A stretch of 33,193 bases of DNA, taken from NCBI GenBank assembly GCA_015490995.1, contig WFWT01000117.1, positions 1 to 33,193 of the forward strand. The letters are read 5' to 3'. The notes under the pieces are model-generated. The model made no database searches and was not told where the DNA came from. It saw only the letters and a program-made list of their open reading frames with translations. The first letter of the stretch is position 1; each line of letters begins with the position of its first letter. The stretch is from Anaerolineae bacterium (GTDB lineage: Bacteria; Chloroflexota; Anaerolineae; JAADDB01). Shown here one piece after another: positions 7,006 to 29,950 of this stretch. Made by a program: the position numbers and the translations under genes.

Positions 7006-7096
7006 TGGCGGAGGGGGTGGGATTCGAACCCACGGGGGCATAACGCCCCACGCGCTCTCCAGGCGCGCGCACTCGGCCAGGCTATGCGACCCCTCC
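7006..7096 (-). tRNA. tRNA-Ser (anticodon GGA)
   Basis: Read on the minus strand, a 7-bp acceptor stem GGAGGGG / CCCCTCC, discriminator G and an encoded CCA (7006-7008) frame a class II tRNA of 91 nt including CCA. The anticodon loop is CTGGAGA with GGA at 7058-7060, the long variable arm is GC-rich, and the T loop GTTCGAATC is standard. It reads UCC/UCU serine codons. It is the second of two tandem serine tRNAs. Confidence 0.95.
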
Positions 7097-7156: not shown

Positions 7157-7247
7157 TGGCGGAGGGGGTGGGATTCGAACCCACGGGGGCATAACGCCCC
7201 AGGCGATTTCGAGTCGCCCGCACTCGGCCAGGCTATGCGACCCCTCC
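7157..7247 (-). tRNA. tRNA-Ser (anticodon CGA)
   Basis: A second class II tRNA with the same acceptor stem, D arm, variable arm and T arm as its neighbour, and encoded CCA at 7157-7159. The anticodon loop is CTCGAAA with CGA at 7209-7211, reading UCG. It differs from tRNA-Ser(GGA) almost only in the anticodon arm, which points to duplication followed by anticodon-stem divergence. It is first in the two-gene transcript. Confidence 0.95.
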
Positions 7248-26236: not shown

Positions 26237-26264
26237 GGAAGGCAACAAGGAGGACGTTAACGCG

Positions 26265-26293
26265 TGAGGGGCCCGGCTATGCCGGGCCCCTCA
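26265..26293. terminator. 13-bp perfect hairpin after purB, likely bidirectional terminator
   Basis: TGAGGGGCCCGGC and GCCGGGCCCCTCA pair perfectly around a three-base loop, 28 bases after the purB stop. T-tracts are poor on both strands, so termination may be inefficient or factor-assisted. Confidence 0.6.
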
Positions 26294-26302
26294 CCTTCCT
26301 GT

Positions 26303-26386
26303 GCGCCGTGGCATCTAACGGAGGTTCCGAGGTGATGCCACGGCGCGGTTCATTCTGCTACGTTTACTGTCCATTGGCATCACCTC
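26303..26386. promoter_or_regulatory. Mutually exclusive hairpins in the purB-deaminase gap
   Basis: Arms 26303-26315 and 26334-26346 pair perfectly over 13 bp. Arms 26329-26340 and 26375-26386 pair perfectly over 12 bp. The two structures share 26334-26340, so only one can form at a time. On the plus strand the second hairpin is followed by C and five T, like a terminator. On the minus strand it masks the Shine-Dalgarno GGAGGTGAT of a 19-codon frame. Confidence 0.5.
26315..26374 (-). CDS. Possible 19-residue basic peptide
   Basis: An ATG-to-TAG frame of 19 codons encodes a peptide with five arginines and one lysine and no hydrophobic stretch. An unusually complete Shine-Dalgarno, GGAGGTGAT, ends four bases before the ATG, and a promoter-like element lies upstream at 26457-26486. 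It starts 128 bases after the deaminase stop and has no gene behind it on that strand. The masking hairpin argues for a regulated leader-type frame, but chance cannot be excluded. Confidence 0.22.
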   Translation of the reverse strand: MDSKRSRMNRAVASPRNLR

Positions 26387-26456
26387 CCCCCTTTTTAGGA
26401 TGGCAAACCTGAGTGCCTGTCCCAGACAGGCATGTGAGGTGCTATGAATTGCAGGC

Positions 26457-26486
26457 ATTATCTCACAGGTAAGGATTAGGAGGCAA
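26457..26486 (-). promoter_or_regulatory. Promoter-like element for a minus-strand intergenic transcript
   Basis: TTGCCT (26481-26486), an 18-nt spacer and GATAAT (26457-26462) with an extended TGA in front of the -10 box. It lies directly behind the deaminase stop and would drive a transcript of about 180 nt ending at the 26265-26293 hairpin. A further 8-bp hairpin with a three-base loop lies at 26414-26432 in that transcript. Confidence 0.4.
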
Positions 26487-26502: not shown

Positions 26503-28527
26503 TCAGTCGGCAAGGTCGACATACTCCCCGCGGACCAGGGCTTCAGGACGGATACCGAATTTCTCCAAAAGTTCGGTGGCCAGGCCAGCTTTGCGCAGTG
26601 CATCCTCTTGTGACCACGTGCGACTTTTAATCTCAAGGAAGGAGATCTCCTGGGCTGGCTTGCTGAGTTTGTCGATGTTCACGGCAAAATCCACCCCCTT
26701 ATACCGAATACGGTACCGGTTGCGCCATTTGACAACTTCCCGTACCTGTGTGGGCTGAAAGTACTCCCGGTAGAAGCGCAAGGAATACACCGCGGGCGCG
26801 GTGAAACGGGAGCGTGATAAGATAATCGAATTGCCGTACTCCCGTTCGTGGGTTGGCCCTAGGAGCGTAAGTGTATAGATGGGTTCTACGTCTAAGGGAG
26901 CCAGGGCACCTCGCTCTTCAGTGGTACGAATGACGTTGTCTTCCCGATAGCGAATAATACCGTGCCTCCGGCCGTTAAAAAGAAAGTAGGTGTCGTACTG
27001 TTGACGCACGGTGTGTTTGACGATTTCAATATCAGGGTCGTTTTGTAGTACCTGCTCAATGTGAGCGGGGTTGGTTATGCGCGCTTTCACCTGAATTTCA
27101 AACGTCTCACTGCGCTCCAAGCCACCGATAGCTAGCAGTTTGTCCAGGAGACTGGCTTCTCGTTTCTGTAGGAACTGGCCAATCCGTTCGGCAATCTGTT
27201 GTGTTTCCGCATAGACACGTTCTACATCCACCGTTAGGACTTCCCCATCCCGTAACACTTGGCGACCGTTGATCCACACGTGGCGGACATCGCCAGCATG
27301 GGCAGTGTACACAAGGTGGCTGTACACATTATGTTCGTCCACCTGATGGTGGGGCCAAGCATGAGGGCCGTCCCAGGCGAGCACCACGATATCGGCCCGC
27401 TTGCCGGGTTCCAAGGAGCCGATGATGTGGTCCAAATGTAATGCTCGCGCACCTTCGATGGTGGCCATGGCAAAGGCCTCTTGCGCAGGGAGAGCCGTAG
27501 GATCCCCCAACATGCCTTTAGGTAGCAAGGCCGCTAGGCGCATCTCCTCGAACAGATCTTGATCGTTGTTGCTCGCGGGGCCATCGGTACCGATACCGAC
27601 AGCTATACCGGCTTTGCGCATCTGCACGACCGGTGCTACGCCCGATGCCAACTTCAGGTTGCTGGTGGGGTTATGGGCAACTCCGGCACGATGACCTGCC
27701 AGCACACGCATCTCCCGTTCTTCGATGTGGACACAGTGGGCCGCAATGACCCTTGCTCGAAAGAGATCCAACGTCTCAGCCCACAGAATGGGAGGGAGCC
27801 CGCGTTCACGGTAGTTGTCTTCCACCTCTTTACGCGTTTCAGAGAGATGAATGTGCACCGGTACGTCAAACTCCAGCGCGAGTTCCAGGCATTGACGCAT
27901 CATGTCATCGGTGGCTGTGTAGGGGGCGTGTGGCGCGACGGCTGGGGTAATCAGCTCGTGGCCTTTCCACTTCTGGATGAAATCACGGGCGTACGCCAGG
28001 CTTTCATCGTATGACTGCGCGTCTGGAGAAGGAAATTTCAAGATGGTTTGACCACATATCGCGCGCATGCCCGCTTCCGCTGCTGCCGTGGCCACCTGAT
28101 CCTCAAAGTAATACATGTCGCAAAAGGTAGTGATCCCTCCACGGATCATCTCGAGACAAGAGAGCAACGTCCCCCAACGGACAAATTCGGGATCCACAAA
28201 TTCGCGTTCAATGGGCATCATGTATCCTAACAACCACACATCCAATCGCTGGTCATCCACCAGCCCGCGCAAGATGGACATGGGCACATGGGTGTGGGCG
28301 TTAATCAGTCCTGGGATGACCAGATGATCCCGCACATCCAGCACGTCGGCCTCTGGATACCGGGGCAACACTTCGGATGCCGGTCCTACCGCCACGATAT
28401 CTGTGCCCGACACTACCACCGCGCCTTCGGGTATCACGCGACGCTGCGCGTCCATGGTGACCACTGTGCCGTAGGCGAGGGCCCACAACGGTTTTTGGGT
28501 CTTTTCCTGCGATGTCTGTTGGCTCAT
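26503..28527 (-). CDS. Amidohydrolase (MTA/SAH deaminase-like) fused to a CYTH-like domain
   Basis: A 674-residue fusion. Residues 1-450 are a metal-dependent amidohydrolase of the TRZ/ATZ and 5'-methylthioadenosine/S-adenosylhomocysteine deaminase branch: NAHTH (H78, H80), VHIHLSE (H225, H227, E230), AAHCVH (H264) and GTDGPASNN (D315). Residues about 474-674 resemble a CYTH (triphosphate tunnel) domain: FEIQVKARI, QQYDTYFLF, IIRYRED, VVKWRNRYRIRYKG and FLEIKSRTW; the usual ExExK start reads E-I-Q-V-K here. CYTH enzymes act on triphosphates or make cAMP. ATG 28527 has GAGGAG five bases upstream and overlaps the stop of the acidic mini-protein by four bases. Deamination of a methylated or S-linked purine nucleoside is the likeliest activity; the role of the CYTH part is unknown. 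Confidence 0.82.
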   Translation of the reverse strand: MSQQTSQEKTQKPLWALAYGTVVTMDAQRRVIPEGAVVVSGTDIVAVGPASEVLPRYPEADVLDVRDHLVIPGLINAHTHVPMSILRGLVDDQRLDVWLLGYMMPIEREFVDPEFVRWGTLLSCLEMIRGGITTFCDMYYFEDQVATAAAEAGMRAICGQTILKFPSPDAQSYDESLAYARDFIQKWKGHELITPAVAPHAPYTATDDMMRQCLELALEFDVPVHIHLSETRKEVEDNYRERGLPPILWAETLDLFRARVIAAHCVHIEEREMRVLAGHRAGVAHNPTSNLKLASGVAPVVQMRKAGIAVGIGTDGPASNNDQDLFEEMRLAALLPKGMLGDPTALPAQEAFAMATIEGARALHLDHIIGSLEPGKRADIVVLAWDGPHAWPHHQVDEHNVYSHLVYTAHAGDVRHVWINGRQVLRDGEVLTVDVERVYAETQQIAERIGQFLQKREASLLDKLLAIGGLERSETFEIQVKARITNPAHIEQVLQNDPDIEIVKHTVRQQYDTYFLFNGRRHGIIRYREDNVIRTTEERGALAPLDVEPIYTLTLLGPTHEREYGNSIILSRSRFTAPAVYSLRFYREYFQPTQVREVVKWRNRYRIRYKGVDFAVNIDKLSKPAQEISFLEIKSRTWSQEDALRKAGLATELLEKFGIRPEALVRGEYVDLAD

Positions 28528-28754
28528 ACCCACTCCTCGTCCTCATCTTCGTCCATATCTTCTAGAGCTAGCTCTTCGTCTTCCTCCTCCCATTCATCCT
28601 CTTCAACTAACTCTTCGTCGTGCAGTTCGAGATCTCCCAGTTCCTCAAAGGTCATGCAGGACAGATCCTCGGGATCCAACTCGATCTCTTCCGCGGAACA
28701 ATACCCTTCCTCCCAAAAGACACAGGCGCTGGCAGGACATTTAATGCGCGGCAT
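28524..28754 (-). CDS. DUF1540-like four-cysteine mini-protein with acidic tail
   Basis: A 76-residue protein. The first 36 residues carry four cysteines (C6, C11, C19, C33) in the pattern C-x4-C-x7-C-S-A-x-x-I then C-x-T-F, which resembles the DUF1540 metal-binding-like motif. The remaining 40 residues are almost entirely acidic (VEEDEWEEEDEELALEDMDEDEDEEWV region), giving a very low isoelectric point. GAGG lies five bases before the ATG. It overlaps the VKOR gene by 14 bases and the deaminase gene by four, so all are translated together. A zinc-binding or redox-sensing adaptor is possible, but no function is established. Confidence 0.75.
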   Translation of the reverse strand: MPRIKCPASACVFWEEGYCSAEEIELDPEDLSCMTFEELGDLELHDEELVEEDEWEEEDEELALEDMDEDEDEEWV

Positions 28755-29196
28755 GGTGTTCCTCCTCTACCGTGCTTGGTTTCCATATTTCTAGGGCCAA
28801 AATGAGGCACAACGCCGTGATACTAATAGCCGAGATGATACAGTACACGCAATAGGCCCGCAAGACAAATGCCTCAATAGCGGTAAGATAAGCTGAGTAT
28901 AAGGTACCAGCGAAGGCAACGCCAAAAGCCCCTTGTAAGGCAAGGAAAGCCCGTTCAGGCGGGACACCCCGATAAGCAATGATGCCTAGACCCAAAATGG
29001 TCAGGTAAGCTAAAAGTCCCAGCAGGGAAATTGGCACGCCGAATATCTTGGCATAGGAACTGGCCTGTACAAGGGCACAATCCCCAATCCCATAGCATTG
29101 GGGATCGACGTCCATGTAATGCGTGTAGGTCAAGTAGGCTGAAGCCCCTATCCCTGTCGCCAGGAAGAAGGAGAAGCCCACGTGACGCCATCTCAT
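28741..29196 (-). CDS. Vitamin K epoxide reductase family protein (VKOR)
   Basis: A 151-residue membrane protein with four to five helices that reoxidises a DsbA-type partner and passes electrons to quinone. The loop cysteines C34 and C40 (DPQCYGIGDCALVQAS), the YAKIFGVPISLLGLLAY block, and the active CVYC motif (C116, C119) in the last-but-one helix are all present. ATG 29196 is used because it overlaps the DsbA-like stop as ATGA and follows GAGGTGGG; a 21-residue upstream extension of the frame is not needed. It forms a disulfide-generating pair with the gene before it. Confidence 0.92.
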   Translation of the reverse strand: MRWRHVGFSFFLATGIGASAYLTYTHYMDVDPQCYGIGDCALVQASSYAKIFGVPISLLGLLAYLTILGLGIIAYRGVPPERAFLALQGAFGVAFAGTLYSAYLTAIEAFVLRAYCVYCIISAISITALCLILALEIWKPSTVEEEHHAAH

Positions 29197-29897
29197 GGCC
29201 CACCTCGTGTCTCTGCGGCTTGTAATGCTTGTTCCACGGCAGCTTTCAAGTCCGGCCACAGAGCTCCTCGTGGGATAAGTTGGCCATTAACGAAGATAGT
29301 GGGCGTGCCCCGAACACCCAGTGCCCGTCCTTCCTCCATCTCTTGTAACACGACATCCATGTATTTGCCACTGTCGACACACTGGGAGAAGGCATTCATG
29401 TCTAAACCGAGGTCATTAGCATATTGTTTTAGTTCTTCCGGTGTGAAAGGAGCGTCACTTTCCTGCTTCGTGAACAGATAATCGTGATAGGCCCAGAACT
29501 TGCCTTGCTCGGCCGCACACTCACTGGCATTGGCTGCCTGGTAGGATCGCAGCACGATAAAGTGTTTGTACACGAGGCGAACCTTCCCCGGTTTAACGTA
29601 CTCCTCGATTAACTGCTGGGCGGGACCCAGCGCAAAGGTGCGGCAATGAGGACAATGAAAATCAGAAAAATCCCACACCTCTACTGGGGCCTCGGGGAAA
29701 CCCAACACCTTGCCGGAAGCAGGTAGCTCCTCCGCGTATTGGGCGGTCTGAGGGATTTCCTGGGAGCGGGAAAGCATACCTGCTACAATCAACACCAGCA
29801 CGGCCAGCCCTGACAATCCCAAGACTAACCATAACGTCTGGACGGGGCGCCCTTCCGGTGTCGTCTGAGCTCGAGGGCGTCGTTTAGGTCGCGCCAT
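29193..29897 (-). CDS. DsbA-like thiol oxidoreductase, membrane anchored
   Basis: A 234-residue protein with a basic N-terminus, one transmembrane helix (about 21-41) and an extracytoplasmic thioredoxin-4/DsbA-type domain. The active site is FHCPHCRTF (C82, C85), the cis-proline loop is RGTPTIFVNG, and the helical insertion contains AANASECAAEQGKFWAYHDYLF. It introduces disulfide bonds into exported proteins and is presumably reoxidised by the VKOR encoded next. ATG 29897 follows GAAAGGACAC; the frame opens earlier but without a site. It heads a four-gene transcript driven by the promoter at 29951-29979. Confidence 0.92.
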   Translation of the reverse strand: MARPKRRPRAQTTPEGRPVQTLWLVLGLSGLAVLVLIVAGMLSRSQEIPQTAQYAEELPASGKVLGFPEAPVEVWDFSDFHCPHCRTFALGPAQQLIEEYVKPGKVRLVYKHFIVLRSYQAANASECAAEQGKFWAYHDYLFTKQESDAPFTPEELKQYANDLGLDMNAFSQCVDSGKYMDVVLQEMEEGRALGVRGTPTIFVNGQLIPRGALWPDLKAAVEQALQAAETRGGP

Positions 29898-29950
29898 GTG
29901 TCCTTTCTCCGTGTTCTGATTGGTTAGGGGGTACCCCACCCGTTGAGGAT

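Follow-up and report, generated by a model that had tools for sequence, protein, structure and literature searches.

What is encoded in the structured gap between purB and an amidohydrolase gene of this Anaerolineae bacterium, on which strand, and is it peculiar to this gap? We analysed the whole 33,193-nucleotide stretch that contains it (contig WFWT01000117.1, hereafter the window). The first-pass annotation had offered two answers: on the minus strand, a regulatory small RNA or a mini-gene under regulation; on the plus strand, a transcription switch at the end of purB. Comparison with relatives argues for the former, with a predicted promoter of its own, a masked Shine-Dalgarno sequence (SD), competing pairings and a terminator hairpin, and indicates that the element is a gene found across the phylum Chloroflexota, beyond a local feature of the purB gap. 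We consider it fairly probable that this free-standing Chloroflexota gene specifies an RNA, predicted at about 170-190 nt, that would work as a translation-gated SD/anti-SD switch.

Layout of the element in the window

At 26486-26264 of the minus strand, a promoter, a 5' hairpin, an SD, an open reading frame (ORF), a 3' arm and a terminator hairpin follow each other in the layout of a free-standing gene. The minus-strand features listed in the first-pass annotation were all found again, shifted by at most one base, and they are conserved. The promoter-like element (26457-26486) reads as a sigma70-type TTGCCT-18-GATAAT with TG preceding the -10 (motif match 9/12), and the 801-base region around it contains two promoter-like sites against a shuffle mean of 0.6. 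An inverted-repeat search recovered the 8-bp hairpin of the 5' untranslated region exactly (26414-26432, arms 26414-26421 and 26425-26432); 69% of 107 copies fold more stably in this region than shuffled sequence does, with means of -8.0 and -6.0 kcal/mol, and the sequence of the region is not conserved. The conserved 5' motif GCCATCCTAA (26395-26404) takes the form GCYATCC in the class, with G, C, A and T invariant or nearly so across 58 aligned sequences. The near-perfect SD, GGAGGTGATG (26378-26387), is near-invariant in both of the alignments described below (58 and 31 sequences). It stands before the 19-codon ORF MDSKRSRMNRAVASPRNLR (26374-26315), which is preceded by GGAGGTGATGCC and ends with the stop codon TAG.

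The SD is involved in a first pairing, S1, whose 5' arm (26375-26386) overlaps it and forms an exact 12-bp inverted repeat with 26329-26340, the anti-SD within the ORF. A second pairing, S2, joins 26334-26346 to 26303-26315 over an exact 13 bp, and the first base of this 3' arm is the last base of the stop codon. The dual pairing proposed for 26329-26346 was thus recovered. Since S1 and S2 share 7 nt (26334-26340), they cannot both form at full length, and to this extent the mutual exclusion claimed for them stood, whereas a partial pseudoknot of the two is possible. The window fold also contains a small hairpin, S3 (26319-26329, 4 bp, CGGA-ACC-TCCG), in the S2 loop directly before the stop codon, and S3-like small hairpins were seen by eye, uncounted, in many relatives. 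The closing terminator-type hairpin (26264-26294, arms 26264-26277 and 26281-26294) has 14 bp, one more than the 13 first annotated, and is followed by a poor T-tract with just 3 T in the best 8 nt downstream.

The flanking genes are adenylosuccinate lyase purB, convergent with the element (Pfam Lyase_1 and ADSL_C), and the amidohydrolase (26503-28533, minus strand). At its C-terminus, the latter carries a CYTH-like domain (PF01928), whose score of 21.0 bits is slightly below the cut-off of 23.2, and we know of no earlier description of this combination. Elsewhere on the minus strand of the window are two tRNA genes of 88 nt, near each other at 7009-7096 and 7160-7247, and, at 28524-29939, successive genes with DUF1540, VKOR and DsbA/thioredoxin-like domains.

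Distribution across Chloroflexota

Of 60 relatives searched at the DNA level, 48 had a match of some kind at E <= 1, about 20 of them clear. In all of the first 20 aligned loci, the SD and the arms are present and the ORF stays in frame, with an ending of AVASPxxx or near it; L019 starts with GTG, and L027 has a longer SD-ATG gap. A covariance model built from these 20 loci (R1, E <= 0.001 in the class search) detected the element in 233/396 genomes of the window's class, including 144 of the 234 of high quality, with one match per genome among the matches listed. Over the phylum, R1 matched 41/301 genomes, 11 of them outside the class. One of these outside matches, L148 in G630, was rejected as a chance match, because it has no SD and the true copy of G630 lies elsewhere (L186).

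A second model, R2, was built from 8 of the more distant copies and used at E <= 0.01. It matched 89/400 genomes of the phylum, and in a second class, that of G406, it matched 132/150 genomes (68/76 genera; 89/93 of the high-quality genomes). The R1 and R2 searches overlap in genomes, so that these counts are not additive. The element is mostly single-copy in the second class, with two copies in a few genomes (G666, G786, G828); the two copies of G666, L207 and L208, differ in sequence. Evidently, the arrangement of the parts is repeated across the phylum beyond chance expectation.

Negative genomes in these searches have to be read with care. G004, which belongs to the same family as the window and is 97% complete, gave no match even at E <= 1. 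On the other hand, a renewed search of 20 R1-negative genomes gave weak matches in two loci, L220 and L223, which look by eye like real divergent members, and R1-negative genomes are not proven absences. In L223, the SD is GGAGGTGGTG and the anti-SD is correspondingly changed to GGCACCACC.

Outside the phylum, the sole genome searched with both models, G838, gave 0 matches. An exact pattern of the Anaerolineae type, which says nothing on the other sequence type outside the phylum, was found over 84,980 species at 50 loci, 49 of them titled Chloroflexota or its groups; the remaining locus, from Pseudopropionibacterium, had no model match. The window's own genome contains a single strong copy, and with one copy per genome in nearly all members we rejected a mobile or repeat element. 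Two patterns gave 0 stretches in viral contigs, and no phage record matched.

Conservation of the S1 and S2 pairings

Pairing was scored in two alignments: A5, with 58 sequences of the window's type, and A6, with 31 sequences of the other type. The set of distinct copies, used for the counts below, has 108 members after removal of L148, which has no SD, and of rows with identical 80-base cores. By choice, A5 and A6 leave out 18 distinct copies with shifted or hard-to-align arms, including the broken copy L070, and further L120, L123 and L095 (a near-duplicate of L094); some arms had their ends shifted manually by 1-18 bases. Paired bases fill 99.8% of the 580 S1 cells and 99.8% of the 577 S2 cells of A5; the A6 values are 99.6% of 279 for S1 and 97.7% of 217 for S2. 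Slid-partner controls were far lower in all cases, as expected for a structure derived from sequence. The first-pass annotation had proposed a search of relatives for compensating base changes in both stems and for the 19-codon frame; the stems hold in both alignments, and so does the frame (see below).

The support by covariation differs in kind for the two stems. Two-sided changes were found at 6/10 pairs of S2 in A5 and at 5/7 in A6, and its covariation was above all 500 shuffles in each alignment. Owing to the near-constant SD, most of the covariation in S1 is confined to one side. One pair of S1 in A5 varies on both sides (AU 52, GC 4, GU 2). In A6, where the shuffle control is uninformative on S1, the SD arm is invariant and the five variable positions of the 3' arm swap only pairing bases, with one exceptional cell; the S2 3' arm follows these changes with compensating changes of its own. 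In the A6 type, the letters of the S2 arm come close to repeating those of the SD (GGTGATGCC), so that the anti-SD arm stands between two competing partners. Moreover, in L108, L109, L125, L163, L164, L165 and L158, the anti-SD appears in another register, as CCTCCTC or nearly so against GAGGAGG.

One base common to S1 and S2 reads on both stems at once. In each of the 52 rows read by script (59 rows in total), it fits its S2 partner, and its changes also go with those of the base on the SD side (Fisher p = 5e-7, uncorrected for kinship). Where it is A, pairing on the SD side is possible in just 18/36 rows. The overlap between S1 and S2 is as small as 0-6 nt in much of the class, and their coexistence as an SD-locking pseudoknot might therefore occur instead of exclusion; such a pseudoknot of S1 and S2 appears possible, from the arm positions, in many class members.

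A frame kept apart from its peptide

Judged on alignment columns, the frame is open to the end of the anti-SD in 58/58 sequences of A5 and 31/31 of A6, and it is closed before the S2 arm in 58/58 and 29/31, against 0-2 for the other two frames. Two copies, L157 and L187, are without the usual stop. The ORF has 13-22 codons across members, and the distance from ATG to the anti-SD is 37, 40, 43 or 46 nt in one group and 27, 30 or 33 nt in the other, changing only by multiples of three. The frame is locked to the ATG though the SD-ATG distance varies (offsets 12-17). The one known frame-broken ORF, with both arms intact, is that of L070 (5306-5403) and L115 (5007-5104), from one closed metagenome-assembled genome, and reflects either real loss or sequencing error.

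The amino acids behave differently. The anti-SD letters are read as GCA TCA CCT in one type and as GGC ATC ACC in the other, which indicates that the letters are kept and the peptide is not. Among loop codons, the synonymous fraction was 0.22 against a neutral expectation of 0.22 (26 pairs, 54 single-change codons), and in the second group 0.14 against 0.20 (14 pairs, 28 codons); this test, based on disjoint closest pairs and single-change codons, has modest power. Many members retain the codons AGT-AAG-CGT without a single base change, so that its neutral outcome may reflect constraint at the RNA level or low power. We favour selection for in-frame translation over selection for the peptide, as the frame and codon data suggest. 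A motif UAGUA(R), which contains stop codons in another frame, recurs in the ORF loop phylum-wide (L096, L152, L202).

These data bear on two rivals of a translation-gated switch. If the element were a true micropeptide gene, its peptide of 14-19 aa would be the product and the SD/anti-SD folds would autoregulate its translation. The perfect SD, start, stop and frame, all kept, agree with such a gene, as do the many members beginning M-(S/D/N)-x-S-(S/K) and the similarity of MNDSKRMGVAAGEAR (L151) to MDSSKRTGAVASPPVEG (L096). However, the loop codons show no synonymous excess, identical anti-SD letters are read in two frames, and the C-termini vary by group (AVASP..., AVASLL..., G[IV][TA]...) as set by the pairing; a micropeptide gene thus seems to us a possible reading with a minor share of the probability. 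Alternatively, the element might be a small RNA with no coding role, equipped with an anti-SD arm and bearing its ORF by accident, which would suit its strong base pairing, its letter-level conservation and its promoter and terminator, and for which ubiquitous cyanobacterial RNAs with anti-SD-like motifs offer a precedent (Yfr1, as described in PMC2190773). An accidental ORF is hard to reconcile with a frame that survives several length changes, all of them multiples of three, with the regular stop before the S2 arm and with the tie to the ATG where its distance from the SD shifts, and we regard it as quite improbable.

A gene with its own signals and varied neighbours

In 78/88 loci (a raw count including duplicates), a promoter-like -10 scoring at least 5 of 7 precedes the SD by 28-75 nt, and members of the distant group have clear TTGACA ... 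TATAGT promoters by eye. Of the 108 distinct copies, 97 have a terminator-type hairpin of at least 7 bp after the S2 arm and 77 one with at least 4 T; shuffling gave means of 19.7 and 3.0.

The neighbours vary from locus to locus. In 94 loci, the genes on both sides lie within 600 bases of the element, and here the four possible orientations occur 27, 25, 22 and 20 times; the downstream gene lies on the same strand in 49 and is convergent in the other 45, as at purB. Downstream genes fall into 139 clusters, 111 of them singletons, with recurrence within lineages and none throughout; the largest, of 15 loci, is AIR-synthase-like (named from its sequence, with no family search). The element is free-standing and has no conserved neighbour, as judged from these gene contexts.

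Were the element to act in cis on the downstream gene, as a leader or an attenuator, the same-strand neighbours, including the recurrent AIR-synthase-like one, would speak for it. Nearly half of the next genes are nonetheless convergent, no neighbour is shared, and a terminator-type hairpin intervenes in most copies, so that we rejected a leader-peptide attenuator acting in cis and hold any cis-acting leader to be extremely unlikely. For a plus-strand switch at the end of purB, the second answer of the first-pass annotation, there is practically no chance left. The T-tailed hairpin noted on that strand does exist in the window, where CCCCCCTTTTT follows the S1 arms, because A/G-rich sequence precedes the SD there; it is not kept in relatives, in which the T-run is unconserved, and most copies have no purB beside them. 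The functional signals all read on the minus strand, among varied genes in all four orientations.

Relation to known RNAs

Rfam 15 has no family for the element. At gathering cut-offs, the window matched two tRNAs and nothing else; the element region, searched at E up to 10, gave unrelated weak matches alone; 12 loci that include distant members gave, again at gathering scores, just tRNAs and a T-box, outside the element; and the element of L202 had no match at E up to 1. Chloroflexi-1 (RF01698), which is listed in the survey of PMC2864571, had no match in the 12 loci either. Our literature searches found no report of the element, and the names of the phylum are absent from the text of two structured-RNA surveys (PMC11109978, PMC6429828). 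A tmRNA or its substitute was rejected, as the tmRNA of this genome (RF00023) lies elsewhere (G000:C84:9043-9458, 163 bits).

The element falls outside the full definition of the hok kind, of leader ORFs and of Yfr1, though each has something in common with it. Yfr1 is described as a small free-standing RNA throughout cyanobacteria (PMC2190773, PMC6778093), with 54-69 nt, two stem-loops and the unpaired motif ACUCCUCACAC (PMC2190773). In distribution, the element resembles Yfr1 by analogy: both are small free-standing RNAs, phylum-wide, with a short conserved anti-SD-like motif, which in the description of Yfr1 is ACUCCUCACAC. The predicted RNA of the element is however about three times longer, and its anti-SD forms part of an ORF and pairs with the RNA's own SD or with the 3' arm, whereas that of Yfr1 is described as unpaired. 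Identity with Yfr1 was rejected, because the window RNA lacks ACUCCUCACAC and is longer.

The self-masked SD, the alternative long-range pairing with 3' sequence and the short free-standing ORF recall mRNAs of the hok type. Hok works through self-masking folds of this kind, and type I toxin loci, plasmid or genomic, are not known to be single-copy and near-universal in a class. On this reading, the element would be a type I toxin-like mRNA that kept the fold and lost or changed the toxin, which the shared masking, competing arm and short ORF would allow. In contrast to such mRNAs, it encodes no hydrophobic toxin, its peptide is unconserved, and it occurs at one copy per genome phylum-wide, near-universally in one class. 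Its 108 peptides consist mainly of S, A, R, V, G and P and are not hydrophobic membrane peptides. We rejected a type I toxin mRNA on the hydrophobicity of the peptide and regard a toxin-derived mRNA as very unlikely.

The ilvB uORF is presented in PMC11109978 as a leader-peptide attenuator, a short ORF with start, stop and SD. The likeness, as far as that account goes, is a short ORF expected, through its translation, to decide which of the alternative stems forms; unlike it, the element has no common downstream gene, and its RNA ends in its own terminator. In its way of working, the element may have some likeness to hok-type mRNAs that mask themselves, or to a leader ORF without a downstream gene.

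RNAIII, SgrS/SgrT and Spot 42/SpfP are dual-function small RNAs with a known peptide or trans target, and the C-rich loops of RNAIII act against SDs. The element resembles them as a small RNA carrying a short frame, here a predicted one. For the element, a free-standing layout and a conserved frame were found in sequence; a known peptide sequence or trans target sets those RNAs apart from it.

A probable translation-gated switch

In the reading that we prefer, the RNA would be transcribed and translated, and S1 would mask its start site. The S2 arm, placed past the stop codon, most likely competes for the same or a neighbouring anti-SD segment. A ribosome traversing the ORF would melt S1, S2 and S3, so that the state of the RNA (S1, S2 or ribosome-bound) would report the ease of initiation. 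Selection in the loop codons would then keep the act of translation and not the peptide. The likeliest output may be that, in an RNA acting in trans, the state determines how far the anti-SD arm is exposed or how stable the RNA is.

Folding models suggest what the pairings alone could do. The two folds of the window differ by 2.2 kcal/mol. Over 107 copies (without L070), modelled SD accessibility was 0.16 before the S2 arm and 0.21 with it, 0.18 with the terminator and 0.15 with a shuffled arm; nested folding cannot represent a pseudoknot. On addition of the arm, accessibility rose by more than 0.05 in 49/107 copies and fell in 18, an increase that is statistically clear and small. Since accessibility is low in every state, folding alone gives no clean OFF/ON switch, and a clean thermodynamic switch was rejected as weakly supported at best. 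In the lowest-energy fold of the window, the freed SD pairs with the upstream conserved GCCATCC, a possible third competitor for the SD according to this model. A look for trans targets in the own genome gave chance matches of 14-20 nt, for example at an adk-like start (named by eye), too few for conclusions.

Taken further, and quite tentatively, the element may be a phylum-core RNA with the initiating ribosome as its "ligand", which would gauge initiation capacity through a throw-away ORF and signal in trans by its anti-SD arm or its stability. The kept frame, the apparently free amino acids and the kept anti-SD letters point to translation as the signal rather than to its product. A single-copy RNA gene on deep branches of the phylum, in 132/150 and 233/396 genomes of two classes, likely has a basic role in Chloroflexota.
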